Part shown: piece by piece, positions 7,645 to 56,560 of the stretch
How the letters are laid out: each line of letters begins with the position of its first letter
How positions within the stretch are numbered: position 1 is the stretch's first letter
Origin: Cucumis sativus
Lineage: Eukaryota > Streptophyta > Magnoliopsida > Cucurbitales > Cucurbitaceae
Direction: 5' to 3'
DNA: 64,000 nt
Assembly (NCBI RefSeq): GCF_000004075.3
Contig: NC_026658.2
Location: forward strand, 14,930,075 to 14,994,074
Position numbers and translations under genes: made by a program
Notes under the pieces: generated by a model
Databases searched by the model: none
What the model was told of the DNA's origin: nothing
Seen by the model: only the letters and a program-made list of their open reading frames with translations

Positions 7645-8406
7645 TTTGATTTGAGGTTAACAATGCGGATTTTCGGCCGAGTTTTGACTGATTCGTGACT
7701 GGATTCGTCAGAGATTCGGATTGGTGACGTATTTGGCGGCTGAGATTTGCCTTGACGGAGACAAAGATTGCGCAGCAGGTCTTCACGAACGGAGAGGAAA
7801 GGAATGGGCACGGCGACGCAGATCTGGACGACTGCTGCAAGGTGACGCGTACGGCTCGCTTCACGAACCGACCGACGATTGCAGCAACGGATCTGGGCAA
7901 ATCCGGTGATAATGGCAGTAAGTTGCACGATTGCAGCGACGATTGCACGATTGAGACAGATCCGGCGACGACCTAGACGGCTCGGCTTGAGACAGATCGG
8001 AGCGGAGACGGCGAACTGCAAGGGTGAAGCACAACCTGCACTTCGCGGATGGAGACAGATCGGAGCGGAGACAAATCGGAGACAGATCGGAGCGGCGTAG
8101 ATCCACTTCGCGGCTTGAGACAGATCGGAGCGGAGACGGCGAACTGCAAGGGTGAAGCACAACCTGCACTTCGCGGATGGAGACAGATCGGAGCGGAGAC
8201 AGATCGGAGCTGCGACTAATCGGCGCGACGAGGATGACGGAGACGGTTCGAGATGTGGCGGAACAGCTGCGAGGCGCGATGAGGATGCGGGATGGAGACG
8301 ATTCGGGACGCAGCTCTTCCTGGAGGTATCGAGACGATTCGGGATGGAGGCGTTCACAGGTGGTTGGCGGCAGCGGCGGCGATTGAGATGGTGCCTGAAA
8401 ACCCTA
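7645..8406 (-). repeat. GC-rich repetitive leader of copia copy 1
   Basis: The ~760 bases between primer site and gag are far more GC-rich than the surroundings and built of repeats. A 91-bp block occurs at 7983-8073 and again, identical, at 8111-8201, with shorter 'gagacagatcggagcg' units around it. Several open frames here on both strands follow from the repeat composition and are not called as genes. Confidence 0.75.
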
Positions 8407-13596: not shown

Positions 13597-14333
13597 CAAA
13601 ACCCTAGACTTACTGTAGTCGCCGCCGTCGCCGCCGCCGGAAAAACTCTACCGTGAAGTCCTGCCGTGAAGACGCTTCCGCGAACGCCAGATCTCCCTTC
13701 AGTCAATCTTCCTGCCGCAACCTTCTTCCACGAACGCCAGACGCAAGACCTTCCCTCGGTCCTTGCCGTGAAGCCCTGCCGTGAAGACGCTTCCGCGAAC
13801 GCCTTGCCGTGAAGACACTTCCGCGAACACCTTGCCGTGAAGCCCTGCCGTGAAGACGCTTCCGCGAACGCCAGATCTCCCCTCGGTCAATCTCCCTGCC
13901 GCAACCCTCTGCCGTGAAAACGCTTCCACGAACGCCAGGCGCCAGATCTCCCCTCGGTCCTTGCCGCAGCCTTCTGCCGTGAAGACACTTCACGACACCT
14001 TGCCGCAGCCTCCTGCCGTGAAGACAACATCTCACCGTGAAGTAGCTCACCTGCTGACGACCTCCTGCCGTGAAGAAACAACCGCGCCGCGAACTCCAGC
14101 AACCTCCTGCCAATATTCTGTGAACTGTATACTCGCCGCCGTCGCAAGCACCCTCCTGCCTTGAAGACCTCTGCTGGCGACCTCCTGCCGTGAAGAAACA
14201 ACCGCGCCGCGAACTCCAGCAACCTCCTGCCTCGAATCCCAACTGCAATTCCAGTGAAATCCCAGCCACGAACTTTAGCCTCGAATCCCAGCCGCAAATA
14301 CTCTGTGAATCTACAGCAGCTAATTATATTTAG
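13597..14333 (+). repeat. GC-rich repetitive leader of copia copy 2
   Basis: About 740 bases rich in 'ctgccgtgaagacgcttccg' and 'cgcgaacgcc' units. A 61-bp block at 14051-14111 recurs at 14171-14231 with one mismatch. It has the same architecture as the leader of copy 1 but unrelated sequence. Long antisense frames here come from the repeats. Confidence 0.75.
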
Positions 14334-17300
14334 ATGGAGAAACATGAAGTTGCTCGTCCCATTAGCACCATTCTCGATGGAACTAATTATATTACTTGGG
14401 CCCACCAAATGAGGAGTTTTTTGATAGGTCGAAAACTGTGGCGCATCGTTACTGGAGATATCACTAAACCAGTCAAACCTACTCCTCCGATGGACACCAC
14501 TGAAAATATTGATACAGACCCATCTGATGTCACTGTTCAAGAGACGACTGCAGAAACCGACAAATACATTGAACGTCTTGAGGATTGGGATAGCAAAAAC
14601 CATCAGATCATTACTTGGTTAGGTAACACCTCTATTCCAGCAATTCACACACAATTTGATGCATTTGATACGGCAAAAGAACTCTGGGATTTTCTGTCCA
14701 CACGTTTTCAGTCTATTGGACTTGCTCACTATTACCAATTGCACTCTCGACTTGTTAGTCTAAATCAGGAGGGAGGACAATCTGTGAACGAGTATCTTGC
14801 AACTCTTCAACCAATATGGACTCAGTTAGATCAGGCAAAAATCAATCCGGAGCATATTCGCCTCATCAAAGTTCTTATGGGTCTTCGCCCAGAGTATGAA
14901 TCAGTCCGTGCCGCATTGTTACATCGTAACCCTCTGCCGAGTCTTGATGCTGCCATACAAGAAATCTTATTTGAGGAAAACCGCCTTGGCATTGTTTCCT
15001 CTCTGCCATCTGATGTCGCTCTTGCAACCACCCATTCACGATCGGCTAATGAGTCTATTTTCTGCAAAAATTGCAAACTTCATGGTCATAAGTTTGCTAA
15101 TTGTCCTACTATTGAGTGCAGGTATTGCCACAAACGAGGTCATATCTTGGACAACTGTCCCACCGTCCACCCCGTCCTCCTGGTGCTCCATATAAACCCA
15201 AGTCCTCCACTAAATACAGTTCTCCACCTATTGTTGCTGCTGCTACCTCCCATCTGATATCACCACACCTCAGAATTTTCAGTTAAATGATCTTCATGAC
15301 TTACTGAAACAGGTGATCTCTTCCAACTCTACTGCTCTTGCCGTCACTCCAGGTACATCTTGGCTCCTTGATTCAGCTTGTTGCAATCATATGACTGCTG
15401 ACATTTCATTATTATCCTCACCTACTCATGTTCAATCTCTTCCCTCAATTCACTCTGCTGATGGTAATCATATGCCTATCTCTCACGTTGGTACTGTTAA
15501 CACACCCACAATAAAACTGTCAAACACCTATCATGTTCCAAAACTCACATTCAACCTAGCTTCTGTTGGCCAACTTTGTGATCTCGGACTAACTGTTATC
15601 TTTTCTTCTCATGGGTGTCAGGTTCAGGATTCTCAAACGGGGCAAGTGATTGGTACGGGACGGAAGGTGGGACGATTATTTGAGCTTACATATCTTCAGC
15701 AATCTCCTGAGTTTCCACCTATCTCTGCACCAGTCACTGATACCTCTATATATCAGTGGCACCTTCGTCTAGGTCATGCATCCTCTGATAAACTTCGTAA
15801 TTTAGTTTCTACTGGTAATTTGAATAATGTCTCAAAATTCAGTCATTTTGATTGCTTAAATTGCAAACTTGCAAAACAACCTGCTTTATCATTTCCTAAT
15901 TCCACCTCTCTATGTAATAAGCCTTTTGACCTTATTCATTCTGACATTTGGGGTCCTGCTCCTTGTACTACCGTTAATGGTTATCGATACTTTGTCTTAT
16001 TTATTGATGACTATTCTCGTTTTACTTGGATTTACTTTCTTAAACATCGCTCTTCCTTATATCAAATATATGTTGATTTTGCAAATATGATTCACACTCA
16101 ATTCTCCAGCAAAATTAAAATCTTTCGAACTGATAATGCGATGGAATATAAGGACTCTCAACTTCTTTCCTTCCTTGCCCAGCAAGGCACTCTGATTCAA
16201 CGCTCCTGTCCTCACACCTCTCAGCAAAATGGAAGAGCTGAACGCAAACATCGTCACATTCTTGACTCTGTTCGTGCTCAGCTTCTATCTGCTGCTTGTC
16301 CAGAAAAATTCTAGGGCAAGGCTGCCCTCACCTCTGTCTATGTCATCAATCGTCTTCCTTCAAAAGTCACTAAAAATGTTTCTCCCTTTGAAAGACTATA
16401 CGGTACTTCCCCTTCTTACTCCAATCTAAAAATTTTTGGTTGTGCATGTTTCGTATTATTACATCCTCATGAACATACCAAACTTGAACCACGTGCACGT
16501 CTATGTTGCTTCTTGGGTTATGGTACTGAACATAAAGGATTTCGTTGTTGGGATCCCATCTCTCAAAGATTACGTATATCTCGTCATGTCACCTTTTGGG
16601 AACATCGTATGTTTTCTAGTCTTTCTTCATTCCATGAATCTCTTTCAAGTTCTCACCCATTCTTCACCGATCCGTCTATTGACCTTTTTCCCTCACTTGA
16701 TTCAACACCTGACACTACACCTTGCATGTTACCTATACCTGAGCCCACTCAATCGGACCATATTTCTGCACTCCCGGATCTTCCATCTGCCCCTCTTGAG
16801 GAACCTGAATCTACACCAATCCGACGATCTACACGGGTAAGAGAAATTCCCTCTCATCTTAAAGATTATCATTGTTTCTCCACTATCATGTCTTTAGTTG
16901 AACCTTCCTCGTATAAGGAAGCCAGCACTAACCCATTATGGCAGCAAGCAATGAATGAAGAACTTCAAGCCTTAGAAAAGACTCATACTTGGGAGTATGT
17001 GGACTTACCTCCTGGAAAGAAACCTATTGGTTGTAAATGGATCTTTAAAATCAAAACGCACTCTGATGGGTCTATAGAACGATACAAAGCACGACTTGTA
17101 GCCAAAGGTTATTCTCAAGAATATGGCATTGATTATGAAGAAACGTTTGCTCCAGTAGCTCGAATGACGTCTGTTCGTAGTCTTTTAGCCATTGCAGCTG
17201 CAAAACAGTGGCCCCTCTTACAAATGGATGTTAAAAATGCATTTCTCAATGGAACTCTATCTGAAGAAGTCTATATGAAACCACCACCTGGTACTACCCC

Positions 17301-18468
17301 GCCACATCAGAAAGTATGTCTTCTTCGACGAGCTCTCTATGGTCTCAAACAGGCTCCCCGAGCCTGGTTTGCAACTTTTAGCTCCACTATTACTCAACTT
17401 GGGTTCACTTCCAGCCCTCATGATTCAGCCTTGTTCACCCGCCAGACACCTAATGGTATTGTACTCCTTCTTTTATATGTTGATGACATGATTATTACAG
17501 GCGATGACCCTCAAGCTATATCTGAATTGCAATGCTACCTGGGAAAGCACTTTGAGATGAAGGATTTAGGACCTCTCAGTTATTTCCTTGGCCTTGAGAT
17601 CACCTCCGTGTCTGATGGTTATTACTTATCTCAAGCTAAATATGCTTCTGACCTACTCAGTCGATCTGGTATTACTGATTCTACAACATCCTCAACACCT
17701 CTGGATCCAAATGTTCGACTTACTCCTTATGATGGTGTTCCCCTTGACGATCCTACTTTGTACCGGCAACTTGTTGGTAGCTTGATTTACTTAACTGTAA
17801 CTCGCCCTGATATTGCGTTCGCAGTTCACATAGTCAGTCAATTCATGGCCGCTCCCCGTACTATTCATTTCACTGCTGTCCTTCGGATTCTTCGCTACAT
17901 TAAAGGCACTTTGGGTCATGGTCTCCACTTCTCCTCACAGTCTTCTCTGGTTCTCTCTGGATTCTCTGATGCTGATTGGGCAGGAGATCCTACTGATAGA
18001 AGATCCACCACTGGCTATTGTTTTTATTTAGGTGATGCTCTTATCTCCTGGCGCAGCAAGAAACAATCTGTTGTTTCCCGGTCTAGCACTGAGTCTGAAT
18101 ATCGTGCTCTAGCTGATGCCACTTCAGAATTATTATGGCTTCGTTGGCTTCTTACTGATATGGGAGCCCCACAAACATCATCTACTACTCTCCATTGTGA
18201 TAACCGCAGTGCCATTCAGATTGCACACAATGATGTATTTCATGAACGAACAAAGCACATAGAGAACGATTGTCATTTTGTCCGTCATCATCTTCAAAGC
18301 AACACTCTCCATCTTCAATCTATCTCTACCATTGATCAACCTGCAGATATCTTCACCAAAGCTCTCCATTCTCCTCGTTTCACTCTGTTACTTCACAAAC
18401 TCAAGGGTGGTTTCTACTCTACCAACTTGAGTTTGAGGGAGGGTATCACCGTAATTAAAGTAATTTAG
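14334..18468 (+). pseudogene. copia copy 2 gag-pol, two frameshifts and a stop
   Basis: Gag starts at the ATG at 14334 and has two CX2CX4HX4C knuckles near 15060-15160. Compared with copy 1, one base is missing near 15166 and another near 15254. Protease (LDSACCNHM), integrase, RT (YVDD) and RNase H then follow in one frame, interrupted only by TAG at 16312-16314 where copy 1 has Trp (TGG) inside integrase. The frame ends at 18468, 25 bases inside the 3' LTR. The gag linker after GDITKP is about 23 residues longer than in copy 1. Three separate lesions in an element with identical LTRs suggest it was mobilised in trans or decayed very fast. Confidence 0.92.
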
Positions 18469-24307: not shown

Positions 24308-24611
24308 TCAATATCTAGTTGAACCTCCACTGCACCCCCCACCACCATCACCACCTCCGCCATCATTTGCCGTTGAAACCTGAATCACCACCGGTGTCAA
24401 CAGCTCTATCTGTGACGAAGGTGCTTGTATTCGTATTGTTCCTTTCATTAGTGACTACTATGTCAATTTGGCCCTCACCATTGAAGATGTGTCCCTGGAT
24501 TTTAATTTTGCTATTATAAGCTCTTCTCAGGATAATAATACTTAACACAACCATAGCAATAAAGACGGAAGCCGAGACAAGGGGTAAGATGATGAATGCT
24601 GGTTGAACCAT
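24308..24611 (-). pseudogene. small membrane Gly-rich protein A, tail frameshifted
   Basis: The open frame from the ATG at 24611 gives 82 aa: a short N-terminus (MVQPAFIILP), one membrane segment to about residue 27, then RR and a polar tail ending at TGA 24363. Directly beyond, in the next frame, the sequence reads NDGGGGDGGGGCSGG and ends at 24308. A one-base insertion just before the stop (AACGGC for AACGC) would explain this. The original product was therefore probably ~100 aa with the Gly-rich tail of its neighbours. It may still be expressed as a tail-less form. TATA box at 24678-24684. Function unknown. Confidence 0.6.
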
Positions 24612-24677
24612 ATTGTATTATTGTCTCTGAATTATGGAATATCTCTAGTTTAACATCAACTGTTGATTGTAATTGTA

Positions 24678-24684
24678 ATTTATA
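24678..24684 (-). promoter_or_regulatory. TATA box of protein A gene
   Basis: Minus-strand CCCTATAAATTAC, about 70 bases before the ATG. A TTGACC motif (W-box core) lies at about 24738 and another TTGAC near 24776. Confidence 0.5.
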
Positions 24685-25100
24685 GGGACGAGAAATATTG
24701 GAAATATTTGAATTGTTAAATTGAGAAGCCACATGGTTTGACCTTTCAAAAACTTGTACCTTTTGGCTACAACCTTTGACTGTGTTTTAACATTGAGCGA
24801 TTTGGGTGTTTTGCTCTGTTTTTTACATAATGAGATGAGATTAGACCCATTCCAAGTTTGTGCTTTGGAGAAAAACCTGACTTGGTTTGTAGTAATAATA
24901 TACGCGCTTATGATTATCATAATTTTGTTGGTTTGATATTCAAGAAGTTTGATTTCTACGGCTGTTTTGGTATATGGTCTTTTTGTTATTATAATGAACA
25001 ATTTTCATTCCCACTGTTATGAGAAAAAAAAAAATATTTGGTATATGGTCTTACAAAGATAACATAATGATTCTTATTTGTACTAAACGATCTTTGGAGT

Positions 25101-25691
25101 TCACCAAATAGATGATCCTCCCCCTCCAAAATCAGAAAACCCTCCACCTCCACCTCCAAAATCAGAAAACCCTCCACCTCCACCTCCACCTCCACCTCCA
25201 TCACCACCTCCACCTCCACCTCCGCCCCGATCATTAGAACTTGTTCCTCCACCTCCATAACTAAAACCTCCTCCATCCACATGAGAACTCACGCCAACTC
25301 CATGATCAGAAACCCCTCCACCTCCTCTATCACCATCACCACAATCTGTCTCATGAATACTTGCTTCACTGCCACCTCCTCCGCCGCCTCCAGTAAGGCC
25401 ACCGTTTCCATCTCCAACTTCAAGACTATTCCTGCCACTTCCGCCGTTGACTGTATCTCCTACAGTGCTAAAAGTCCAATCCCAACCCCAACCTCCATAA
25501 CTACTGCCGGAAAACATATTGCTGTCTGTTGTACTCGTATTTCCACCTTCAACATAAATTCCATTTTTATCTTTTCCCGTAGACATTACTTTCCTCTTCC
25601 GCCGAAGTAAACACAACAAAAATACAACAATATTAGACATTATAAAAACCCCAACAACAATGGGAAATATGATGTATGCTGTTCTAACCAT
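25101..25691 (-). CDS. small membrane Gly-rich protein B
   Basis: Intronless, 196 aa, the longest member of the cluster. N-terminus MVRTAYIIFPIV, one membrane segment to about residue 29 with Cys (LLCLLRRKRK) at its inner edge, then a basic stop-transfer. The long tail is Gly/Ser/Asp-rich with two FSDFGGGG units near the end. By the positive-inside rule the N-terminus lies outside and the Gly-rich tail in the cytosol. There is no cleavable-signal pattern, unlike classic cell-wall glycine-rich proteins. TATA-like TATATATTT at about 25753-25762. Plus-strand frames over it are codon-complement shadows. No family name known to me. Confidence 0.7.
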   Translation of the reverse strand: MVRTAYIIFPIVVGVFIMSNIVVFLLCLLRRKRKVMSTGKDKNGIYVEGGNTSTTDSNMFSGSSYGGWGWDWTFSTVGDTVNGGSGRNSLEVGDGNGGLTGGGGGGGSEASIHETDCGDGDRGGGGVSDHGVGVSSHVDGGGFSYGGGGTSSNDRGGGGGGGGDGGGGGGGGGGFSDFGGGGGGFSDFGGGGSSIW

Positions 25692-25752
25692 TATCGATCT
25701 CTAAGATAATATTAGAAGACTTGGGGGATGGTTGGTTGTTGAAGGAAGCTCC

Positions 25753-25762
25753 AAATATATAC
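25753..25762 (-). promoter_or_regulatory. TATA box of protein B gene
   Basis: Minus-strand GTATATATTTGG about 65 bases before the ATG. TTGACC motifs follow near 25815 and 25832. Confidence 0.45.
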
Positions 25763-25769
25763 TTCAGTA

Positions 25770-28210
25770 CTGTTTGAAAATCTTGGTTTAATTTTCTTAA
25801 TTTTGTACACAATCTTTGACCCTTCTGTTTCAGTTTTGACCTTTCTTTCTAATAAAAAAAATTGTGCTGTAAATTATAAATTTAAGTTTAATTTTCTTAA
25901 TTTTGTAGTCACATTTGTTTTTCCTTTTGTTAAATTACAAATTCAATTCTGTGTTTATTACATCCATGATTTTTTAAAAATTATAAATTTGGTCGACTTT
26001 CTATTTTTCTTTCTTAGATTTATAAATCTATTTAATACAAAATTGAAAGTGAATTGGATTACTGTGTTTGTTAATATATATTTAAATGCAGTGTGTTACT
26101 GTGTTTGTTGATTGCACCGTCAAAATTAACAATTACGTGTTAAAAGAAAATTGTATCTCTTCATATTCCATTAAATATAATCTCTGGTTAGGTTTTCAAT
26201 AATGGGAATATATATATATATAACTTCTATATTGTGAGAAAATGGAAATTCCAAATCATTAGTTGACAAAACTAAGGTTGACAGATTTGGGAATGAAAGA
26301 CTAATTCAAAAACCATTAGATAATGAGTGAGTCAACTCTAGACCACAGTCTCTCTTAATGGGTTGTTTTGGTAATCTGTTAAGTTTCTTTTTTCGATTTC
26401 CCCAAAGAATTTAGGCAGACCAAACACCCCCCCCAAATAAAAAGAGAAAAACCTCTACCTTCACCATGACTAGTGCCAACCTTCTTCATGATCTCACGTT
26501 TGGAAAAATAAAAGGATTTCTCGATATTAATATGATAAATGAGTTACTCTTGAATTTGATTCTTATCAACATATTTGTTCTTTTTGTATAGGATTTTAGA
26601 AATTTTAGAAATGGTAATATTTTGAATTATAAGGATAAATTTAAATTAGGTTGCCCAAATATTATATGCTTAATTTTTAGAATTAGCAAATCATGATAAG
26701 AGAATCAGAAAATATTTCAAAAATCCCAAACAAAGAACAAAAAAAACTTTATTGTTTGACTTTGCAATTTTACAACTGAGTTTTTGGACAAAAAATAAAA
26801 ATAAATAAAGATTTTAGTCTTTTTAAAACAACTTCCAAACATAGCGTAAGAGAAATGAGAGTTTTCCATTCTTAGGCAATTCTTTCTAAATTTTGCTGTC
26901 ATGGTCAATATAAACATAAGTTAAGTAACATAAAATTACTTTTTATAACTATAAGATTGTTTTGATATGGTCAAGTTTATTATGTCATAAATGAGAAGTT
27001 TAGAAATTTTGATTAATAATTGAATTAAATAATAATTGACTCGACCGAACAATAGATGCACGTTAGAAAAAGTAGGGCGTTATATGTTATTACATCCCTC
27101 TTTATCTATGAATTTTGATCGTTGACCCATCACCATATTATATTTTCTATGATATTGTTCTAAAGGATTGCAGTAAAGCTAAATATACTAAAATTTAATT
27201 TAAAGTTAGCAAAAAAAAAAAAAAAAAGAACATTCAAAACAAAGTGGAAAGTAAAAATAAATATTTGGATCCCTTTTGTTGTTTATATGACATTGGTTTG
27301 GGATCAATTATGTGTAAAACAATTGGTTTGAGGTTGGCTCAAGAACTGACAAAATTAAACCGACTATCACCCCTAATTCTTACCCTTAAAATCAATTTTT
27401 AAAAATTAATTATATCTCAAAATTTTCTCACATACAAATATATTTATAACTTTTATAATTTTGTAATTTACTATTTAATCTTGATATTACAATATATTTT
27501 ATATTTATGGATATTTTCAAACGCACCGAACAAAATTAAAAACTATTTACAAAATTGTTAATCAAGTTGTTGGATATAATCACACCTATATCGACTTTTA
27601 GGTCAAAATGTGAGAAAGTTTAGGGGTGTGAAAAGTGTTTGCAAACTGCAAAGAAACAATACTTGGATAATGTGATCAATTTTATACATATAACTGACTA
27701 CTAGTGAATAGGTCAATCTCCTCTGATGCTGCTGAAGATGAGTATATGTAGATTCGGGCTGTCCACTAGAAACAGCTCACCTTCCTTTCACCCACCGTTG
27801 CACAACTCTCACAACTACTTCTTTTGCAATTAATCCATTGTTGTTCAATGTAACGACAGGTTGGAGAGATCAAACTTCACACGCAGAACGACATAGTCAA
27901 TATCAACTCCTCAATCACAGTGACGTGCATAACCACATGGTTTTCTTTTTCAACCAGGGCGCCAAAAAGAAAGAAAATATCCACAAACACGGAAAAACCA
28001 CCAAAGAAAAGGAAACCAGGGCAAGACAACAACCAAAGAAGGCAAAACTCCCATATAGTGAAGAACTTACAGAAAGTTGGAGACAACATAACCCAACACG
28101 AAGGATAAAAAAGAACATTGAATATGATAAAAAATATAACAAATACTCTCCACTCATAAAGGAGAGATCGCTTCCTAACACATAACAGCCACTGTATCGA
28201 ATGAAGGCGA
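25770..28210. other. AT-rich spacer within the cluster
   Basis: No conserved coding frame seen. Contains a short TA repeat near 26210. Frames at 27838-28185 are in simple Lys-rich sequence and have no recognisable domain. Confidence 0.4.
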
Positions 28211-28438
28211 TTAGTCGCCACCCCCACACCCACCTCCACCACCCCCACCTCCATCGCCTCCACATCCCCCGCCGTCGCCAGGACCCGCACCTCCACCTCC
28301 ATAATTGGCTTCTATATCAGGACGGGGGCCTTCGGCACCTCCAGTGCTCTTTGAGCTGAGACAAGTCATGACAGTGCTAACGATAAAAATGGAAACACTA
28401 ACCACTATGACTATAATAAGTGGCGTAGGAAACGACAT
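28211..28438 (-). CDS. small membrane Gly-rich protein C
   Basis: Intronless, 75 aa. N-terminus MSFPTPLIIVIV, one membrane segment to about residue 26, Cys at its edge (TCLSSK), then a linker (EGPRPDIEAN) and a tail of almost pure Gly with Cys at three places (GGGCGGDGG, GGGCGGGD). It has the same architecture as proteins A, B, F and H. The TATA box is at 28493-28500. The upstream element CACACGTAAAC (28570-28580) recalls the ones before F and H. Longer frames at 27877-28302 on the same strand read the Gly codons out of phase and are rejected. Confidence 0.68.
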   Translation of the reverse strand: MSFPTPLIIVIVVSVSIFIVSTVMTCLSSKSTGGAEGPRPDIEANYGGGGAGPGDGGGCGGDGGGGGGGGCGGGD

Positions 28439-28492
28439 TTTTGGTATGAACTTGAAGCTTTCATTTTGTTACGAACTTTCATCCTTTTTCTT

Positions 28493-28500
28493 TTTTATAG
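28493..28500 (-). promoter_or_regulatory. TATA box of protein C gene
   Basis: Minus-strand CACTATAAAAAAG, about 57 bases before the ATG. Confidence 0.55.
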
Positions 28501-28504
28501 TGAA

Positions 28505-31500
28505 ACAAAGCGACACACAATGAGAGAGATTGGATAACTGTGGAGTTGAAATTCAAATGGTTGCATTTCACACGTAAACGGGATTGTTTTTTTTTTCAAA
28601 AAAAAAAGAAAAGAAGAAGATATATATATTCAACATATAATTTAATCATTTCGACTTATAGGAAGTCATTATTTTTAAATTTCTGACATTTGGACCTTCA
28701 GTTTTCCAAGTTTTCTAATTAAATTAATAAGTTAAGCTAAATACCTATCTAATCATCCCTCATTTTCAGTATATGTATATATTTTTTAATTTGATCTCTC
28801 ATATAATATTTTGAAATGATAATTTCGATCCTCTATGTACGAAATCTTATGAATCATGTCCTTTCGTAACTTTTCTTTTCTCTTACATGTTATGCTAATT
28901 TCTAAGAAAACTATTATTTTATCAACCTATTTAGACTGATAAACTTACAACTTGAATATATAAAGTCTGGTTGATTTATATGTCTAGCTGGTGTTCTATA
29001 ATAGTGAAACGTTGGATTATATTGTGTGAATTGCAGTATTATACAGTGGAGTTGTCCACATAATAAAACAATAACGAAAATTATAGCAAATATCCCAATA
29101 AGAAAATAAGCCAAAAATATAACACAAGTTTAAAATATTAAATGTTACTAATCAACTTGTAAAATTTGTTAGAATTTCAAATTTAACCTAACAGTGCACA
29201 TGTTTTCATCTTGATGGCAGCTAACAGCTATCAGCCTTTGTATGTTGAGTAAAGTGGAGAAATCTAAAGAATTCATATGATTGGCACTCTCATTCCATCA
29301 ATCCGCACATACCCATTTGCCACTGTTAAAACTTTAATTTTTGTTCCTTTTAATTAAATTGGCTTCATAAACCAAACACTTTCTCTTGTTTGTGGCACGC
29401 AACCCAGCATATACAACCCCATTCCTTTGTCCCCTCCTGCAACTTCGCTAGAATACCTCTTTCCCCGTCTTTACCTCCAACCAAATCGGGTTGTACACAC
29501 AAAGGAACCGCTTCTCACTATCGAAATTGGCCCTCAAGAGACCTTTCACTTTCCCTTTTCCATTTGAATGGAATAGACAACAGAAGAGATCGAGGAGGAT
29601 GGCAAAGGATGTGATGAAGATGAGGGAGGAGAGAGAACAAGAGAAAAGGGAAGAGAGAAACCACAAATATCTACAAAATGACAAATGTTTTGACAAAGGG
29701 GTTAATTGCAACAATTTAAATATGTGAAGGGTATAATTGATCAAATTCAAAGTTCGCTGTGATGGTTACCAACTCCATGGTTTATGAATGGTTATTTCAA
29801 TTTCTTCTTCTTTCTTTCTCTCTTCTTATTATTTTATCTTTGGGTAATTCATTTTTTTCTCTTTGTTGTCTCTAAACTTTTAAAAGTGTGTTTTAATTCT
29901 AAAATTTTTTAAACAAATTTTATATTGTTCATTGTAGTTAGAATTCGGTTAGCTCTTTAATGAATTAATGAATTACACTCTAGATTTATTTATTGTATTA
30001 ATTAAATTAATAAATAATAAATAATAAAAAATATTGTTAATTTACTCCATGAATCTTACATGCTAACATAAAAATATAATTAGCACATTTAAATTAAATA
30101 AATTCAGATTAAAAATTAATGTTTTATTTTTTTCTTTAAAGCTTAAATTTCTCACATCTTCTTTTGACTCCTCCACCAATTATTTATTTATCTATTTTTC
30201 ACATTAAAATCTTGAACCAAATCCAAAAAACAATATCGAGTAGAATAAAAAAAACTAAATAGAACTAATATCATCCAAAAAAAACAATATTGAGTAGAAT
30301 AAAAAAACTAAATAAGTTTGATATCATCCATGACAAGGTAAAATAAACTAAACAAATAAAAATATGTAATGTTTATTTAAAATAAGCCGTATGAAATTGT
30401 AAACAAATATCCGCACACTAAATTATAAAAGCCCAAAAAGGAAGAAGAAATAATGGAGAAGAGGATTAAAAAGCACCCCTATGAATCACAAAATATCTCA
30501 AACTTGAGGTACTAAAAAATTTATATGTTGATGAATTATTGCATCAAACATATATGAGTCGAAAAAGTGAGGTAGAATGACAATGTACCAAAATGGTTAC
30601 AAACAAAATCTAAAATCAAAATTTTAGTTTTGATACATATTTATGAAAAATTATAAAAAAAATAATTTTGAATTAATAAATAAATATTTTTATTATTTTC
30701 AAATAAGTAAACATATCTATTATTTATACTATATTTATATTAATCATTTTTTTGTGATTGGTGGATTTTTGTACGATATAATGTATTTATATTAAGTCAT
30801 GGAAATGTGGAAATATACATATATTGATAGAGATTTTAAAATATAATTTTAACTTAAAATTTTGATTTTTATTTTCAAGGCTAAGAAATTTGGTGCAAAA
30901 ATTGGATGAATGGAAATATTTTTAAATTATTTTATAAGTTTACGTGCATTTATGAAACTTTTTAATAGTTCAAACATATTTTTTAAACAAAACTTTAATG
31001 GATATTTTTGAACAATTTCCAAAAGTTTAAGGATATTTTTGAAAGTTTGAAAGTTTAGAGGTATTTTTTACGGGATATTTTTTTTGTAATTTAGCTTATT
31101 ATAAATGGTATAAACTTTTGCTAAAATAATTTGATGTTTAATGTAGGGAATATTTCTTTTATTTTATTATTAAAAAACAAAAATAAAACTATAAACAATA
31201 AATAGCAAGTTTTAGCTTTTAATTTTCTTTTTCTAATCCAAAAATAGGAAATATAAATAATTATTTTCAAAAATAGGAAATATAAATAATTATATATAAA
31301 ATAGATATTTTTAAATATAGAAAAAGATAGGAATCAAAATATTTACAAAATATATTTATATATACTATGAGTAAAATTTTGGTATATTTTGTATTTCAAA
31401 ATTATTTATTTATCTTTGTCATTTCATAAAAAATTCTACATAAAAACATATTAAGGTTTCCAAGTTCTTAACAAATAGAAAAAGGAAAAACATAAAATAA

Positions 31501-31517
31501 AAACGTTATCGAAGAGG
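28505..31517. other. AT-rich spacer within the cluster
   Basis: No gene recognised. Short frames at 29390-29750 overlap on both strands and show no domain. A duplicated 'aacaatattgagtagaataaaaaa' block occurs near 30228 and 30284. Confidence 0.4.
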
Positions 31518-31853
31518 CTAACTACCACTACGGCTGCAAGGGGATCTACAAGATTGACATTTCTGAACTTCCTCTTCCGCCATACTTTCAATCAACCGAA
31601 ATCCACCGCCAAGATTTACACAGCCCACTCTGCCAATTACTCCGCCCCGAAAGTAATTGCTTATTATTCCACCAATATGATTTCCGTCTTCATCAACCAC
31701 GACGTAAGAATTTCCGCTGCCACAGCCTCTGCCGTTCACCCGATTCACATATTGTCTCCATCGATAATATAAAGTTACAATAAAAGAAACCAAAATTACA
31801 AACACACCCACATACACCAACACTTCAAAAACTATCGGAAACACTGTGAACAT
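31518..31853 (-). CDS. small membrane protein D (RWRQYVN type)
   Basis: I start at the ATG at 31853, 111 aa; the longer frame to 31895 opens only with GTG. N-terminus MFTVFPIVFEVL, a long hydrophobic segment to about residue 28, then YYRWRQYVNRVNGRG, a mixed linker, IESMAEEEVQK and a Cys/Ser/Arg-rich end (CQSCRSPCSRSG). The N-terminal plan resembles the Gly-rich neighbours, but the tail is different, so it is a separate subfamily with locus E. No known domain recognised. A TGACGTGG element lies at about 32044-32051, roughly 190 bases upstream. Confidence 0.65.
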   Translation of the reverse strand: MFTVFPIVFEVLVYVGVFVILVSFIVTLYYRWRQYVNRVNGRGCGSGNSYVVVDEDGNHIGGIISNYFRGGVIGRVGCVNLGGGFRLIESMAEEEVQKCQSCRSPCSRSGS

Positions 31854-33459
31854 TATGCCAACGGCGTCGTGCACATCATCTCTATCAATTATCACCTCTG
31901 ATCACCTGCTGCAATATTATTATTGATTCAATTCATGTTTCTTCTTCTCTCCCTTTTTAAAACAAATGAAACGTTTTTAGATTTTAACGTTCATTTTTTT
32001 TTTTTTTGGTTTAAAAAATTACATGTATATTGTGTGATTAGTTGACGTGGGAAATTTAATGAGTTTGACTGTTTAAATATAATATATATTATTGGTGTTA
32101 CTCGGTCTAATAATTAACTAATGAGAAAAATGTTTGTTTCAACATAATTGATAATGTAATATATACAAGATGCTTGTGAGAAAATGTTGATATGGTCATC
32201 GAATTAATATAACTTTGGTAAAGTTCATGGAAGGAGAGGTTTCAAAACCACGATATGTTGTGTATTATTCATTCAAATGCTGACGTTGTTGATGCGGGAA
32301 AACAACCTAACTATTACCAGCAGAAAAATAACAGAGAAATTGATAACTAACCTGAACAAACTTCAAATCAAAGAAAACAAATCACGACGACAAATAAATT
32401 TCACCATGTACAAAATTATATAATCACATTAACAATCTCTTCTCTCCACCCTAATTACATAAGAATTCTCTCAAAGTAGTATACAGTATAAGCTACACAT
32501 TGAGCTAGTATATCAGATATCAAACCTTTATTGATAATAATGAGATGATTTATAACCAAATGCATAAGCTTTCTTCTATAATATTCTTTCTTGAACCTCA
32601 ACAATATTCTTTAATATTTTTTGTCAAATCAGTGTAAGAATCACTAAATTGATTTCGTAGAAATCGCTTCATTCTGTGAAGTTATAAAGGAGAGCACAGA
32701 AAGAAGCGGTAAGATTATCCAATTGGTATGTAGTCGAAAACCTAATACTTTGAAAGGTACACTATACATTGAATCACATTTTGGAAAATTTATTCATTTT
32801 GACATTTTCTAAAATTTTTACCTTCAATCATTTCCTAAGTTTGCTTTTCTAATAATTCTTTTTTGTTTCCTTGGTATATAATAAAATTAGATTTTAAAGT
32901 TACTTTTATACTAATTCCATTTCTTTTTTAATTTTACTTTTAATACAATGTTATTGATAACTGATTTGATTTTATATTATATATTTAACTCTTTTTAGCA
33001 AGATACTACCAGAAGAGATTAATAATTGCATTTAGACATCTCCACTACGTTGAGAGTTCTTGGCATATTCATTATATATATTATATTTAAAATTACTTTT
33101 AGTTTCTAATTTCAAATCTTTTAGTTTTGTTTATCTATTATTGTTGATGGATAATGAATGAATAAATCAAGTAACAATTTCTTTTGGCATGAGGTTACAT
33201 GGGTTTTTATTTCAACAAAAAGGAACATAAACATGTATTGATCAGTATTTTTTTTTCTTCTTATTAACAATGAACTAATTATAAAAGATAAATAAGAAAA
33301 AAAATAGTAACAAAAAATAAACAAAAAAATCTCAATGACCCTCCATATACATTTCTCAAAAATAGATTTATTCACTTGTTAATGTGTTGCATCAACTTTA
33401 TTATTCAACTTGAAAATAGATTTTTGAAGTAGGAGAGATTCAAGATTTTTATTTGATAC
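31854..33459. other. AT-rich spacer
   Basis: No gene recognised; promoter of protein D at the left edge. Confidence 0.4.
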
Positions 33460-33620
33460 GTGCTGTAATTTAGAATTCAGAAACGTATATGTCTTATTCT
33501 CATTGAGTCAAAGCAATGTTACATATTTATATAGAGAATAAACTAAACCCTAGAGACTAAGTAAAATTACAATAAAGGACATATGTATATATATATATAT
33601 CATAACACGTGCATCCTTGC
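33460..33620 (-). repeat. possible solo LTR
   Basis: Read on the minus strand it has a TATA box (CTATATAAATA), an AATAAG poly(A)-like site and an end ...TTACAGCACG, the order of elements in a short copia LTR. No partner LTR, primer site or target duplication could be shown. Confidence 0.22.
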
Positions 33621-33839
33621 AACTTGAACATAAACACAAATATATCTTGAGATACTTTGGAGATTAGAAAGAACAATGATTTGAGAGAATAAAAATGATG
33701 AGATAATGAAGTAAGTGTTAGGTGGAAAAAATGGTGAAATTTTTCTGTTTTGTAGTAGTCGAAAACGATAGTTACAAAACTTGCCATTTGAATTCTAAAA
33801 CTCTTAAATGAAAAAGGAGGTCTCGGTATCAACCGTTTA

Positions 33840-34285
33840 AAAGACACAAATTCTGCTTTGTTGTGTAAATGACTGTGGAGGTTTTATAACGAAAGCAACC
33901 CTCTTTGGAAGCGTATTATTTTGGCTAAATACAAACAATCCTTCTTGGGAGACATCCCGACAAAAGGAAAATATAGCAGTAGTAAGGCCCCTTGGGTTTC
34001 CATCTCTAAATTTACCGACCTCGCGGGACTGTGGACTAGTAGATCCAATCACTTCTCAAATTATCCCCCGAGCTCTGTTGCGCTGAATTTAAACGCTTTC
34101 GACTAGTCCTTTGTTTTGGATTTATTGTTGGGTCTATGGACTTTTCTCTAATCCTTTTTACCTCTTGTTTCTTGTAATCATTTTCCTATATTAATGAAAC
34201 AGGAATGAAGGTGCTCTAGGGGTATCCACATTTGAGACACCTGACCCATTTGTATCTCTACCTTTTTAAAAAAAAGTAAAATAGA
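33840..34285 (+). mobile_element. LINE 3' fragment
   Basis: Codes in plus for WRFYNESNPLWKRIILAKYK and then GKYSSSKAPWVSISK, the pattern of the C-terminal part of plant LINE reverse transcriptase proteins (W..V...KYG...). After a stop near 34106 follows a non-coding tail and an A-rich end. 5'-truncated, as usual for LINEs. Confidence 0.55.
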
Positions 34286-34502
34286 AAAGGGACAAAAGTG
34301 TTTAGAAAAAATTTTCCAAGGTCAATCAATCTTTTGATATGTTATAGAATATTATAAAAAGAAAAAAACAAATGAAACAACAAACAGAAATTGTCAAACA
34401 ACTTTTTATTTTCAAGATTGAAACATAAACACTTAAAAAAACATATTTTTAGTTCCAAATCTTAAGAAGTTCAGAAATGGAGAAAAATGGAAAACCAAAA
34501 AG

Positions 34503-34850
34503 TTATGAAAGGGCTCCATAACGACCACTGCAGCTGCAAGACCTACAAGATTGTCATTTCATAACTTCCTCCTCCGCCGTACTTTCAATCAACTGAAGTC
34601 CGCCACCTCTGGCCAGAAAGTTATCGGTTCCACAAATATTATGAAATCTATGATCTTGATCAACCACTATGAAAAATTTTTCGCCGCCGGAACCTCTGCC
34701 GTTCATCTGATTCACATACTGTCTCCATCGATTATACAAATTAACATTGAAAATTTTCGTACTAGAAAAAACAGCATGAGAGACAATGTGAAAGGGTAAC
34801 TTATAAAACATCTGGACAAGATTATCAACAACCACACTTCAAAACTATAG
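34503..34850 (-). pseudogene. decayed paralogue E of protein D
   Basis: Shares with D the core YNRWRQYVNQMNGRG, IVVDQD, GGGLQLIESTAEEEV and the Cys-rich end. A TGA at 34554-34556 stands where D has the first Cys of its CQSCRS motif (TGT to TGA); the rest of the end (QSCRSCSCSG) is still readable to a stop at 34503. Upstream of the core the membrane segment is broken by frameshifts, though DNA similarity to D (GAAGTGT.GGT) continues to about 34850. A clear pseudogene. Confidence 0.7.
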
Positions 34851-35090
34851 CCCAATACCAAATTTAAAGTGTTTTATATTAGAATATCTAAAACTAAACA
34901 GATGTCAACTAGTGCAATTATTGATATATCTCCCTAACTTAAAAATGTTTTTTATTTTCTATTACGTTTCAAATCCAACATTTTTTGTTTATTCCCACCA
35001 CCCCCACTTTTACAATCGTCTCCGGTGTCCCTTTTCGTTATAGGTATCTTCACATATGTTAAAAAAAATAAAACAAAAAATGAAACCGAT
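34851..35090. other. spacer before tRNA gene
   Basis: AT-rich; includes the T-run terminator region of the tRNA gene at about 35061-35080. Confidence 0.4.
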
Positions 35091-35164
35091 TGTCTGAGCC
35101 CGGGTTCGAACCGGGGACCTCTAGTGTGTGAGACTAGCGTGATAACCAACTACACCACCCAGAC
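35091..35164 (-). tRNA. tRNA-Val (CAC)
   Basis: 74 nt. Acceptor strands GTCTGGG and CTCAGAC pair with one G-U. The A box (TGGTGTAGTTGG) and B box (GGTTCGAACCC) are intact. The 5-bp anticodon stem CTAGT/ACTAG closes the 7-nt loop CTCACAC with anticodon CAC. No intron. Minus-strand T runs just downstream (35061-35080) serve as Pol III terminator. It looks functional. Confidence 0.95.
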
Positions 35165-36109
35165 ATTTTGATTATTTCCTTTATTTGTTTCAATTTCAAT
35201 GCTCTTCTCTCTTAACCTCCTATCTAGTAAATGTTAATGTAGCAAATTTTGGATTCTACTAGTGTCTATTATTAGAATATGAAATTTTGTAAATATTTTT
35301 AACACTTTGATTATTTATTATAATTTCTTTTTAATATATGTGTGTGAAAATATGAATTTTAGTTATTTATGAGTAGAAGGTATGTGTAGGGCTTACTTGA
35401 TGGGTAAGGTACTTAATAGTTATTTTAAAAATAATGTTAATATGTGGATGAAAATATGAGCTTTTCTAGTTTTCAAAGCATTAATTTTAATTATGTTTGA
35501 TCATATTTTGTATATGTTAGTTTTATTTGTGTGTTATATATTATTATTTTTAGTTAGATTTGTGTGGGTTGAATTTATTAGACTTGGAGGATTTTTGTTT
35601 TGCTTCCAACCCACTCAATTAGGTTGCAATATATGCTGGGGCCGAAGATATAAATAATTGATTTTGGGAAACTGAAACTTCCAAGTATTTGCTCTTTAAT
35701 ACTTTCCAAAGAGATACATTTTGAGAATTCCATTCCTTAGATCTTTTTTTAAAAAAAAAGTTGTGGTCATCACTCATCAGTCAACCTCATATTTGGGAGT
35801 TTTTTCTCCATTCAAATTAGATCATATTTTCTAGAATATCCATTTATAATGGATAACAATATTTTTAAAAAATTATAAATATAAAAAAGTCCATCTATTA
35901 TTAATAGATATACATAAAAGAAAAGAGAAAATAGTAAATAGTGTTGAAAACAAATTGGGAGTTATCCAAGCTCTCCAAACAATATATGCAACCGGCAATT
36001 TGTCTACCAGATTACTAACACAAATTCATTAAAATTTTATGAGATTAAAACCCCCTAATTAATTCTGTTTAATACATATATACAATCAAATGAACATCAC
36101 CAGCCAGAT
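35165..36109. other. AT-rich spacer
   Basis: No gene recognised. Confidence 0.4.
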
Positions 36110-36409
36110 CTACCCTCCGCCACCTCCCCCACCTCCGCCTCCACCTCCACCATCTCCTCCCCCACCGCCGCCTCCACCACTGCCACCTCCGCCATCATAA
36201 CCGCCACCTCCACCATCATAGCCACCACCTCCACCACCGTCTTCTCCACCATCGTCTCCTCCACCTGGGCCATCAGCGCCTCCGAAATGAGCACCATCTC
36301 CGGTAGAACTGCCACCACCAGTCCACCGGCAAAGTAAACTCAGCACCGCGAAAACTACACAAATTGAAAGAAAAACTACCGGAATAATAATAAATGCAGC
36401 ATCGACCAT
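36110..36409 (-). CDS. small membrane Gly-rich protein F
   Basis: Intronless, 99 aa. N-terminus MVDAAFIIIPVV, one membrane segment to about residue 27 ending in LLCRW, then GAHFGGADG and a Gly-rich tail with two YDGGGG units and a final run of Gly. Closest relative is protein H: both read C(R)W, then a Ser/Gly turn, then AHFGGA. No cleavable signal; predicted N-out, tail in the cytosol. The Cys next to the membrane could be S-acylated (inference). TATA box at 36485-36492. Function unknown. Confidence 0.7.
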   Translation of the reverse strand: MVDAAFIIIPVVFLSICVVFAVLSLLCRWTGGGSSTGDGAHFGGADGPGGGDDGGEDGGGGGGYDGGGGGYDGGGGSGGGGGGGGDGGGGGGGGGGGGG

Positions 36410-36484
36410 CTTTTTCTTTTTTAGAATATAGTTTCCTTTTTCCTATGAATATGTTGAAGCTTTACAAATGTTAAACTCCTTTCA

Positions 36485-36492
36485 TTTATATA
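36485..36492 (-). promoter_or_regulatory. TATA box of protein F gene
   Basis: TATATAAA on the minus strand, 76 bases before the ATG, in a 'ttatataataaat' context repeated exactly at gene H. Confidence 0.6.
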
Positions 36493-36560
36493 ATAAATCC
36501 TGCATTGAATGAAAAAAGATTGGGATATTATATTTTGAAACATAGATATTATATTTTACG

Positions 36561-36651
36561 TCTCAGTTGTTTGAATTTTACACGTAAAAGAAATCAATTT
36601 TGAAACATTCAAACCCTTTGAATATTATATTTTCTGAAAGGTTTGACCTTT
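36561..36651 (-). promoter_or_regulatory. promoter block shared with gene H
   Basis: The run from 'tcagttgtttgaattttacacgt' to 'gaaacattcaaaccctttg' matches 38384-38466 upstream of H. On the gene strand it holds TTTACGTGT (ABRE/G-box-like). TTGACC (W-box core) follows at about 36643. Confidence 0.55.
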
Positions 36652-36861
36652 AATGACTTCCTTACGAAGGTAATCATCAACCAAAAAAGTTGCCACCATC
36701 GACACTGCCCTCACCGGGATTACGGCCACCAGGTTTCTCTTGATAATTACAAAAATAACACAATATATGACTATGAACATATTGTAATGGGAGTTAGAAA
36801 TTATACTCAGAAGTAAGAGTATAATTGCCCGAACTGGAAAATCCCCCTTTGTTTTTCCCAT
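36625..36861 (-). pseudogene. decayed member G of the Gly-rich family
   Basis: A 78-codon frame begins at the ATG at 36861, but it mixes phases of the family plan. One frame carries a membrane-like stretch (MFIVIYCVIFVII). Another carries a Gly-rich tail (EKPGGRNPGEG, SVDGGNFFG) ending at TGA 36677. FLTPITICS before an in-frame TAG recalls the F start. The leader keeps TTCTAGAATATAGTT as before F. I read it as a frameshifted paralogue; the frame as given may not be translated. Confidence 0.45.
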
Positions 36862-36899
36862 GGACTTCTAGTTCTAGAATATAGTTATTTTTCGTTTTT

Positions 36900-37225
36900 T
36901 TTTTTCCTTTTTTTTTTATAGTACAAATGCATGCAGGTTGGGGATCGAATAATAAACTCCACTAGAGAGAGGAATTTTCTTTTAAGAAAATTTTTCTTCC
37001 CAAAAATGTTTCTACCTATCCCAAGTCAGGTTATTTATTTGTTTATTAACCAGAAACAAGAGAAGATGGATTAGTCGTGCCCCAGAATATTTTAACCTTG
37101 CTATATTTGTAGCACATTCGTCATCAGCCCAAAATATCATTGATGATCAAAACAAGATCAGTACAAAGGGAGAAAGGAGAGCTAGATAAATGCTCTCCCA
37201 ATTCAAGGCAGTGGTGGATATATCG

Positions 37226-37262
<37 letters not shown>

Positions 37263-37936
37263 ACCTGGTACACTAATTAGTAATTAGCATCAAGAGAAAT
37301 ATGTTCCAAAAGGGCTAGCCGGCTTAGATTTTTACTTTGACAACTTACAATTGTTGCGCTAGACGGCTTAGCTGACTCTCATACTATACTAGAAGTGAAT
37401 GTAATATTATAAGTCACAAATATACACACATTTATAGATTATGTTAATGAGTTTAAGTTTAATTTGACAACAAACAATTAATTTATATTTTATAAAGTTT
37501 GAATAAATATTTTGAATAAAAAATTTATTAAAAGAGAAATTGCATGCAAAAATCATTTGGAAAAAAATAGTTAGACATTTTGTTAATATAAGTTATGTAG
37601 AAGTTACTAGCGAATAATCTTTTAAATTTATTATTTTTACGATTTTGAGAATGTAGTAACATAATCCTATTATCATTTTTTTTATTTTCGTAAATACCTC
37701 TTATTAAAATTAAAAATGGATTATAGGAAAGAAATGTATAAGCCCCAGATTCAACCAATAACTTTCTAACACAAATTTTATTATTTGGACTTTAATAAAT
37801 ATACACAAATTTATTTGAATAAAAAGAATTACTAACACAAATTCATTCAATTGTATAGGGAGAGATTACAACCTGATTAACCGTTTAATTAAATTACATA
37901 TATACGGCCACAATTGACAGGAAAAAAAAAAGGTCA
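36900..37936. other. spacer between G and H
   Basis: AT-rich, holds the (AT)n tract; no gene recognised. Confidence 0.4.
37229..37260. repeat. (AT)n microsatellite
   Basis: About 16 uninterrupted AT units. Shorter ones occur near 42891, 49918, 49989 and 59667; a GA repeat lies at 38518-38544. Confidence 0.9.
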
Positions 37937-38200
37937 TCAACAGGCAGAGCTAGAGCCACCTCCACCTCCGGCGCCACCACCACAACCGTGTCCTCCACCT
38001 CCAGAATGGGCTACGGCCACGTGGTGAGCATGACCGCCGGCATGATGATGGAATCCTCCAGCATGGGCAGCGCCGCCGAAATGAGCATGTCCTCCGCCGC
38101 TGGAACTGGCCCCAGATGTCCAGCAAATAAAACTCAACACCGTGAACAATACAACAACGGAAACAAAAACCAATGGGACTATAACAAACGGGTCAGCCAT
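37937..38200 (-). CDS. small membrane Gly/His-rich protein H
   Basis: I choose the ATG at 38200 (87 aa) over the upstream frame start, because MADPFVIVPLV aligns with the starts of A, B and F. One membrane segment ends in FICW at about residue 28. The tail begins GHAHFGGAAHAGG and carries about a dozen His in HxH and HHH groups, then turns Gly-rich with HGCGGG and a C-terminal Cys. Such His/Cys spacing could bind metal ions (inference). It is a close paralogue of F, with a shared promoter block and TATA context. TATA box at 38326-38333. Confidence 0.7.
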   Translation of the reverse strand: MADPFVIVPLVFVSVVVLFTVLSFICWTSGASSSGGGHAHFGGAAHAGGFHHHAGGHAHHVAVAHSGGGGHGCGGGAGGGGGSSSAC

Positions 38201-38383: not shown

Positions 38384-38466
38384 TTTCAGTTATTTGAATT
38401 TTACACGTCAATGGAATATTCATTTTGGAACATTCAACGCTTCGGATATTTTGTAAAAGTTTGAAC
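38384..38466 (-). promoter_or_regulatory. promoter block shared with gene F
   Basis: Matches 36561-36648 over about 80 bases. Holds TTGACGTGT on the gene strand, an ACGTG core at about -205. Confidence 0.55.
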
Positions 38467-54485: not shown

Positions 54486-56560
54486 TTTTTGATGTACTGT
54501 TGTACAGAGGGAGAAAAAGAACAGAGTTAAGCATAGCTGTTCCAGAGGGATGATGGTTTTAATCTAATTAGCATGGACAAGGTGCTGGGAGGAAAACATG
54601 GCACGGCATGGAATGAATATGATGACACATCACATTTTCAAAAAGTTAATGCAAATTTCACAAACCACCTCTGTTCGACAATGCTTTTTACATTTGATTT
54701 GTACCCTCAAATTTTTAATAGAACAATTACACCACTATCACCACATAAGTTGAGCGAGACTCACTTGATAACCATATGGTTATAGATTTTTTTAATTTAA
54801 GCTTCTAAACACTACTTCCACACATAAGTAAGCTTATAAACACTACTTTCACACATAAGTAAGCTTATAAACACTACTTCCACACATAAGTAAGCTTATA
54901 AACACTACTTCCACCTATAAGTTTCTTGGTTTTGTTATTCATTATCTACCAATGTTTTCAAATGCCAAGCGAAGTCTTGAAAACTAAGAAAAAAATTAGT
55001 TTTACTTTTGGAATTTGACGAACAATCCAAATGTTTCTTTACGAAAGATGAAAATGATAGTAAGAAAATTAGGAGTAAATCAATGCAAATTTCAAAAACT
55101 AAAAACTAAAACCGGCATTGTTGTCTTGGCCTCAATAATTCGGCCCCTTCAGCTTGCCTTTCAATTTAAAACTGTCTACAAGCAAGCAGATGCACGCACA
55201 ATGAGTCTCCAGCTTCCTAAAATATTAGGATTCCATGCATTTAATATAATAATAAGTAGATGGAGTTAGAGGAGAAGACCAAATGAGGGGTGTAGGAAAA
55301 TCAAAATGTCTTCAAAGGAGATAAAGACAGAAAGGAAGGGAGAGGGAGAAATTATGTTAGAGAGGAAGGGCTTGAAAAAGAAAAAAGAAAATGCAAGGGG
55401 TAAACTCAGAAACAAAGAGGGATAACTTCTAAAGAGATAAATACTTAGATAGAGAAATCTTTAGTTCTCCATAATTTCCCTCTCTACATCTCTCTCTATA
55501 CTTCAATTTTCTACCACAGTTTCTCTTGCTCAACACATTTCCTTATCTTCATATCTCTAACTCACACAGTTCTTTATTTCTGAATGTCTATTTCCCTTTA
55601 CCTACACCCCTCCCTCCTCATCTCTTTCTCTCTACTTCTACGTCTCCTCTCCAGTCTCCACCACATTTTTTCTTTCTCAATTAACACATTTTGACATCCC
55701 TATGCCAACATTATGTCCTCCTCATTTTAGCCTCACATCTTACCAAAGCATGAAACCATAGCACTTTCTAAAGATCAAGAACTATCTGGGCACATGGACA
55801 TGCTGTGCTGACAAGTAGAACTTTGTAATCAACAGTCGTAATAAAACAGACCAATTTCTTCACCAATGAAAATTAGATGGTGTAGTTGCTCGAGGTGAAA
55901 ACTTATTGGCGCAATTGTAGCAAACCCCAATGAACAGGTAATTTATTCGATTTTTTCAAAATAAAAAAGAAGTGTATACCACTTCTCTGGTTTGTTTCAT
56001 GTGTCCCCAATGAGATGCAATACAGCTGAGCTAACCATATCTTGATCTCTTCATCTATTTTGAGGTGTTTTTATAGTAAACATTATTCAGTAGTTTCTTC
56101 TTCTAACCTAACTACGGAATAAAGTCAAAAGAGAGGAAATGAAGGATAACCAATTTATAGGATAAGAAAAATAGAAACCCCAGACCTAATGTACCATTAC
56201 CAGTAATTAAAACTTTCGACAGCCTTTGAACTGGGCATGATCGGAAGGAATGGATCGGAAATTAAATATCTAAAAATATAAAGAGTAAAAGAAAGCTTGG
56301 AATCGAAACAATAAAACCGACTCACTAATTAAAAATCGAAAATCAGTAGTAAAACAGTCGACGGACTTAGAGATGAGAAATGAATACCTGAGGGGTAGAA
56401 TCAAAGAGAAAAGAGGTGATTTCGTGGGAATGGTAGAAGTAATGGAAGAAATGGTGATGATTTAAGAGATGTGAACCTTCATTTACAGAGTAGGTTTCCT
56501 TTTTCTCCAAGCCAAGTTTTTCCCCTTGCGAATGAAGTTGACGATGAACCAAAGTTTGGA
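54486..56560 (-). other. probable 5' UTR exons and intron of PAC
   Basis: A minus-strand donor CAG|GTATTC at 56388/56387 and an acceptor AACAG|TAC at 54497/54496 would splice a leader exon (56388 to about 56560, CT-rich) to 11 bases before the ATG. The intron would be ~1.9 kb. Long leader introns are common in plant proteasome genes. Supported by splice sites only. Confidence 0.45.
54802..54923. repeat. 31-bp tandem repeat, four copies
   Basis: Unit 'cttataaacactacttcc' plus 'acacataagtaag' at 54802, 54833, 54864 and 54895, the last cut short. One or two changes per unit. It lies in the inferred PAC leader intron. Confidence 0.9.

Follow-up and report, generated by a model that had tools for sequence, protein, structure and literature searches.

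The window analysed here (64,000 bases of Cucumis sativus, C4:14930075-14994074) carries eight loci, A to H, and the claim of the initial annotation that all of them are on the minus strand was borne out, with minus-strand ORFs found at 8 of the 8 places. At five of them (A, B, C, F and H) the ORF is short and runs in a single frame. The ORF of A (24363..24611, minus strand) encodes 82 residues and begins with a hydrophobic segment (residues 4-28), followed by RRAYNSKIK and a tail that in this frame is not Gly-rich. Its frame stops at 24363, and a Gly-rich stretch lies 3' of it (24308..24366, minus strand) in a different frame; because that stretch sits outside the frame of A, it suggests a former Gly-rich tail, putatively lost through a frameshift. 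B (25101..25691, minus strand; 196 residues) has a hydrophobic segment, RRKRK and a long Gly/Ser/Asp-rich tail, and C (28211..28438, minus strand; 75 residues) a hydrophobic segment and a Gly/Cys tail. In F (36110..36409, minus strand; 99 residues) the segment is followed by a tail mainly of Gly and Asp, and in H (37937..38200, minus strand; 87 residues, with the start taken as the ATG homologous to that of F) by a Gly/His/Cys tail, in which 11 His and 2 Cys lie beyond residue 37.

Two further loci form a pair of their own: D (31518..31853, minus strand; 111 residues), with a hydrophobic segment, RWRQYVNR and a tail ending in CQSCRSPCSRSGS, whose membership in the family is uncertain, and E (34437..34793, minus strand; borders approximate, as the union of merged DNA and protein matches), a degenerate relative of D that lacks the hydrophobic segment and has a TGA in the region common to both. 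The ORF at G reaches its hydrophobicity maximum at residue 30. A tRNA-Val (cac) gene also lies within the cluster, between E and F (35090-35165, minus strand). No plus-strand gene had been noted between the loci; a Pfam scan of 10 of the 13 plus-strand frames of at least 80 codons in or overlapping the interval gave no convincing match (best E 0.046).

Six of the proteins (A, B, C, D, F and H) are strongly hydrophobic near the N-terminus: over 19 residues the Kyte-Doolittle maximum is 2.71-3.09, in a stretch that by this measure starts at residue 5-11. None of the six has a second such segment past residue 35 (highest 1.01). The remaining features ascribed to A, B, C, F and H in common hold for most of them. 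The start motif is lacking in C; the Pro within the segment is present in A, B, F and H, and in C stands ahead of the segment; the Gly-rich tail is found in B, C, F and H (34, 33, 49 and 26% Gly in frame), with that of A in another frame (9% in its own). There are thus four genes with Gly-rich tails and one without; the in-frame Gly content of D, E and G is 14, 9 and 4%. A Cys near the end of the segment occurs, as had been noted, in B, C, F and H with A excepted; D has none there. After the segment there are at most two Cys in B, C and H, and none in A and F. Tails vary between members in both length and residue class.

Relatedness of the loci

Protein comparisons used the first 35-38 residues and took three forms: alignments of 35 residues against 1000 shuffles, comparison with a control set of 22 unrelated N-termini, also hydrophobic, drawn from the window and 200 kb of flanking DNA, and leave-one-out profiles. 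None of the 1000 shuffles reached the scores of F-H (z = 13.2), A-F (8.5), D-E (8.0), A-H (7.3) or A-B (5.3), and very few those of B-D (1/1000, z = 4.3), C-F (2/1000, 4.1), C-H (2/1000, 3.8) and B-F (3/1000, 4.1). Pairs at or near chance were A-D (88/1000), B-C (203/1000), B-H (249/1000) and most pairs with G or E. No hydrophobic control (0/22) reached F-H, A-F, A-H, A-B, C-F, C-H, B-F or B-D; between 1 and 11 of the 22 reached A-C, A-D, B-C, B-H, C-D, D-F and D-H. Leave-one-out profiles recovered F (E = 9.8e-11), A (3.6e-7), H (1.2e-6) and B (1.2e-3, with the best background at 0.0099); neither C nor D ranked within the top 15 of 1449 frames. Resemblance beyond hydrophobicity alone is clearest for F-H, then A-F, A-H, A-B and C-H. 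These computations show that A, B, F and H descend from one ancestor; C is also a member, on support that is good but less uniform.

Of the single eight-locus family first envisaged, these five stand. D is at most a possible distant relative and E and G were dropped. For D as a full member the B-D score (1/1000) is set against the failure of the profile to find it, and we left the matter there: perhaps a far relative. E had been described as a tiny membrane protein, and we rejected it as a gene because its membrane segment is degenerate (hydrophobicity maximum only 0.90) and a TGA stands in place of a Cys codon of D. At the DNA level the two match from about codon 23 of D, and as proteins from residue 9, with one internal TGA; positions 31687-31785 of D and 34654-34752 of E are 80% identical in DNA, and E has no hydrophobic segment. 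From this identity in spite of the lost segment it would follow that the 5' part of E decayed faster or was replaced. D and E are, on these matches, a separate pair in which E is the degenerate relative. G was rejected as a member on its protein pairs (251-755/1000 shuffles, with C-G at 21/1000) and on coding DNA that was not convincing (31-177/200 shuffles against six loci, B at 3/200 being the exception). The leader of G does match that of H (2/200 shuffles; a 39-base blastn match), in A/T-rich low-complexity DNA, for which reason a decayed copy is possible at best.

At the DNA level, blastn aligned F and H in the promoter, the coding N-terminus and the 3' flank; the upstream match covers 70 bases at 80% identity (0/200 shuffles). 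Dinucleotide shuffles of coding DNA never reached F-H, A-B or C-H (0/200 each) and were indistinguishable from C-F (102/200) and A-F (36/200). Upstream of A and B, alignments with the other loci scored at, or close to, the level of shuffled DNA (the lowest count, A against H, was 10/200). An upstream match between D and H (0/200) is, we guess, low-complexity DNA, and Gly-rich DNA repeats alone produce blastn matches between loci. Homology of F and H runs into non-coding flanks on both sides of the gene, and by this measure the two are true tandem duplicates.

The genome (226,625,048 bases in 88 contigs) was searched with proteins A, B, C, D, F and H and with a blend of them, and only cluster members were returned at convincing E values. 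Computation thus shows that single-protein searches find no apparent relatives outside the cluster, with the proviso that far relatives escape such searches, as F and H did when A, B and C served as queries. A profile run over the 200 kb flanks added no gene to the family; the highest-ranking other match had E 0.17. We rejected two weak matches on contig C5: at the first (E 1.59) the ORFs inspected by eye had no resemblance to the family, and the second (E 1.79), a hydrophobic run followed by Gly, was taken as chance because it lies antisense to a longer frame of 159 residues with an Asn run. PDB searches with D and H returned nothing at E 1, and matches to NCBIfam, a prokaryote library, were all far under cut-off.

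Membrane orientation and known glycine-rich proteins

The number of Lys and Arg before and after the hydrophobic segment is 0 and 4 in A, 1 and 5 in B, 0 and 4 in D, 0 and 1 in F, and 0 and 2 (with three acids) in C; H has none on either side. By the positive-inside rule this favors a cytosolic tail strongly in A, B and D, and weakly in F and C; common descent makes that orientation likely in F, H and C as well. The cytosolic tail proposed earlier is thus well supported by flanking charge for A, B and D, faintly for C and F, and finds no support in H itself. Our preferred reading, which we put at about an even chance, is that A, B, C, F and H make up an old and small tandem family whose products cross the membrane once and have disordered, probably cytosolic tails. 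The uncharged N-terminus would be translocated and the hydrophobic segment kept as an uncleaved anchor, N-terminus outside and C-terminus inside, with the disordered Gly-rich tail on the cytosolic side. The membrane-edge Cys of B, C, F and H might be S-acylated. The anchor would be the constrained part, for placement in the membrane and perhaps for helix pairing. The tail would be an arm under looser constraint, flexible or sticky; through the Asp of F, the His and Cys of H or the Cys of C it could bind metal or partners, and metal binding by the 11 His and 2 Cys of H is a guess.

Alternatively, F, H and C would lose their hydrophobic N-terminus as a signal peptide and release the tail to the apoplast or wall, like classical glycine-rich proteins (GRPs) of plants. 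By a loose definition a GRP has at least 20% Gly, as given in part of PMC11772090; B, C, F and H (26-49%) come within it, and A, D, E and G do not. The plant GRP superfamily has five classes. AtGRP3, of class II, combines a putative signal peptide with a Cys-rich C-terminus, according to part of PMC4777284. The cluster proteins are like plant GRPs in being small, Gly-rich and from a plant, with Cys in the tails of C and H; they are unlike AtGRP3, as there portrayed, in having no Cys-rich C-terminal domain and in that we judge an uncleaved anchor the likelier. None of the eight proteins exceeded the 30-bit cut-off of the Pfam GRP family (PF07172), and C alone matched it, weakly (residues 7-73, E 1.7e-5, 25.8 bits), the other seven having no match; the genome has two matches over the cut-off, both on contig C7. 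Besides this match and the Gly content, a secreted product is favored by the absence of a positive stop-transfer flank in H and by the small residues TSGASS after its segment, by eye a possible cleavage site. It is opposed by uncharged runs that are long for a signal peptide (24 residues in F, 29 in C), by the lack of any positive residue ahead of the run in A, C, F and H, and by the strongly basic C-flanks of the relatives A and B, typical of anchors; in A and B themselves the charge pattern argues against a class II signal peptide. We consider secretion somewhat unlikely.

Among small membrane proteins of plants, the PCM proteins are very small and partly in tandem (PCM1-3, PCM4-6), and PCM1-5 of the eight localize to the plasma membrane (PMC8049917, in part); the CYSTM family has a Cys-rich, tail-anchored membrane domain (PMC10217909, in part). 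Like the PCMs as so described, the cluster proteins are small, membrane-bound by prediction and in tandem. Unlike CYSTM and PCM proteins, as far as those accounts go, they have the segment at the N-terminus and at most two Cys, and none of the eight matched CYSTM in Pfam at E 1; a search of the whole genome with that model gave no match anywhere and is uninformative. A name for such a family was absent from the literature searched, a body of work that most subscription papers fall outside.

This is a real but ordinary kind of plant gene cluster, small and local, of moderate interest because its Gly-rich tails probably face the cytosol. If the orientation is true, the Gly-rich part sits across the membrane from where the customary role in the wall would need it, and the array, in which the anchor is conserved and each copy has a tail of another residue class, offers a compact test case for the evolution of low-complexity tails; if it is false, they are one more small GRP array in a crop genome.

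Promoters, selection and age

The element ACGTGTAAAATTCAA occurs 176 bases before the ATG of F (36571..36585, minus strand), within the stretch homologous to H, and 208 bases before that of H (38394..38408, minus strand); a similar element, ACGTGTGAAATGCAA, lies 137 bases before that of C (28561..28575, minus strand) and is suggestive only. Computation shows the promoters of F and H to be homologous, to judge by their alignment. We tempered the idea of a promoter common to C and F/H: the single upstream element of C resembles theirs, and its whole upstream alignment does not convincingly do so (12/200 shuffles with F, 63/200 with H). The pattern ACGTGTRAAATKCAA is found at 9 places in the genome vs. 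6 for its reversed control; three of the nine are the cluster sites used to write the pattern, and the remaining six equal the control count, so that the genome-wide number lends no independent support. Around these six, inspection by eye found no family-like, Met-started ORF of at least 45 residues within 1.5 kb. TATA-like boxes precede the ATG by 61-83 bases in A, B, C and F, and in H the distance is 131-133; since they are also present before the rejected E (67 bases) and G (59 bases), they do not discriminate members. In responses to ABA and stress, bZIP factors often bind elements with an ACGT core, and the one before F and H, with its counterpart before C, hints at control of this type.

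Over 44 codons of F-H, dS was 0.88 and dN 0.23; the resulting dN/dS of 0.27 indicates purifying selection on the N-terminal anchor region of these two genes. A ratio near 1 for this pair had been named beforehand as evidence against the initial annotation, and none was seen. The corresponding pN/pS was 0.39 (bootstrap 0.20-0.68). For A-F it was 0.50 (0.31-0.87), with dS saturated, and the intervals of the other pairs extended to 1: A-H (0.43-1.02), A-B (0.35-1.42), C-F (0.50-1.15), C-H (0.52-1.75) and D-E (0.49-1.03). Constraint was computed for the anchor of F-H; the tails differ. Local duplication, one half of the earlier proposal of a locally expanding family, is upheld by the shared promoter, coding sequence and 3' flank of F and H, by the coding-DNA similarity of A-B and C-H, and by the position of all convincing genome-wide matches within this cluster. 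Expansion as a present process is not, because even this closest pair is already at dS ~0.9; the cluster pairs are old by this gauge, and recent expansion is unsupported.

A, with its tail out of frame, and E, with a degenerate segment and a stop, seem to have decayed. Together with the lack of a recognisable family gene at G and the copia elements in the same window, they could be taken as signs that most members of an old tandem array are relics that no longer work as genes. The dN/dS of F-H and its upper pN/pS bound of 0.68 speak against this, as do the intact frames of B, C, F and H and the conserved promoter DNA of F and H, and we think such wholesale decay quite improbable. Most improbable is that there is no family at all, only short hydrophobic ORFs beside GGN repeats, alike by composition: repeat-driven blastn matches, the profile's failure with C and D and several pairs at chance would fit, but N-termini (A, B, F, H, C-F and C-H, with B-H excepted) that beat both shuffles and the 22 controls, and F-H homology in promoter and 3' flank, contradict it in the case of A, F and H and for the most part in that of B and C. 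It stands for G and partly for D.

The membrane-anchored family that we prefer can be taken further, to a lineage-restricted family in which a conserved working anchor would hold a freely evolving cytosolic Gly-rich arm, decorated with Asp, His or Cys, at the inner membrane face, with F and H at least under a common ACGT-type promoter: a membrane-tethered counterpart of wall GRPs outside the described classes. We offer this only as speculation and hold it unlikely in full, in part because common promoter control of C is weaker.

Surroundings of the cluster

Pfam matches elsewhere in the window identified a C1-domain protein (1.5-2.3 kb), two oppositely oriented copia-type retroelements, a POT-family transporter (41-42.6 kb), a DUF617 protein (45.8-46.7 kb), a proteasome subunit (53.7-54.6 kb) and a mitochondrial carrier exon (60.5 kb). 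The first copia element (4114-7656, minus strand) has an uninterrupted frame of 1181 codons, and adjoins a tandem array of ~63-base units and shorter 16-base units (7989-8227). The second (14334-18465, plus strand) is split over several frames, the first of which (14334-15254) was assigned by eye, and has a GC-rich 28/41-base tandem array upstream (13761-13869). A 31-base tandem repeat in four copies (54798-54922) lies directly upstream of the proteasome subunit gene.
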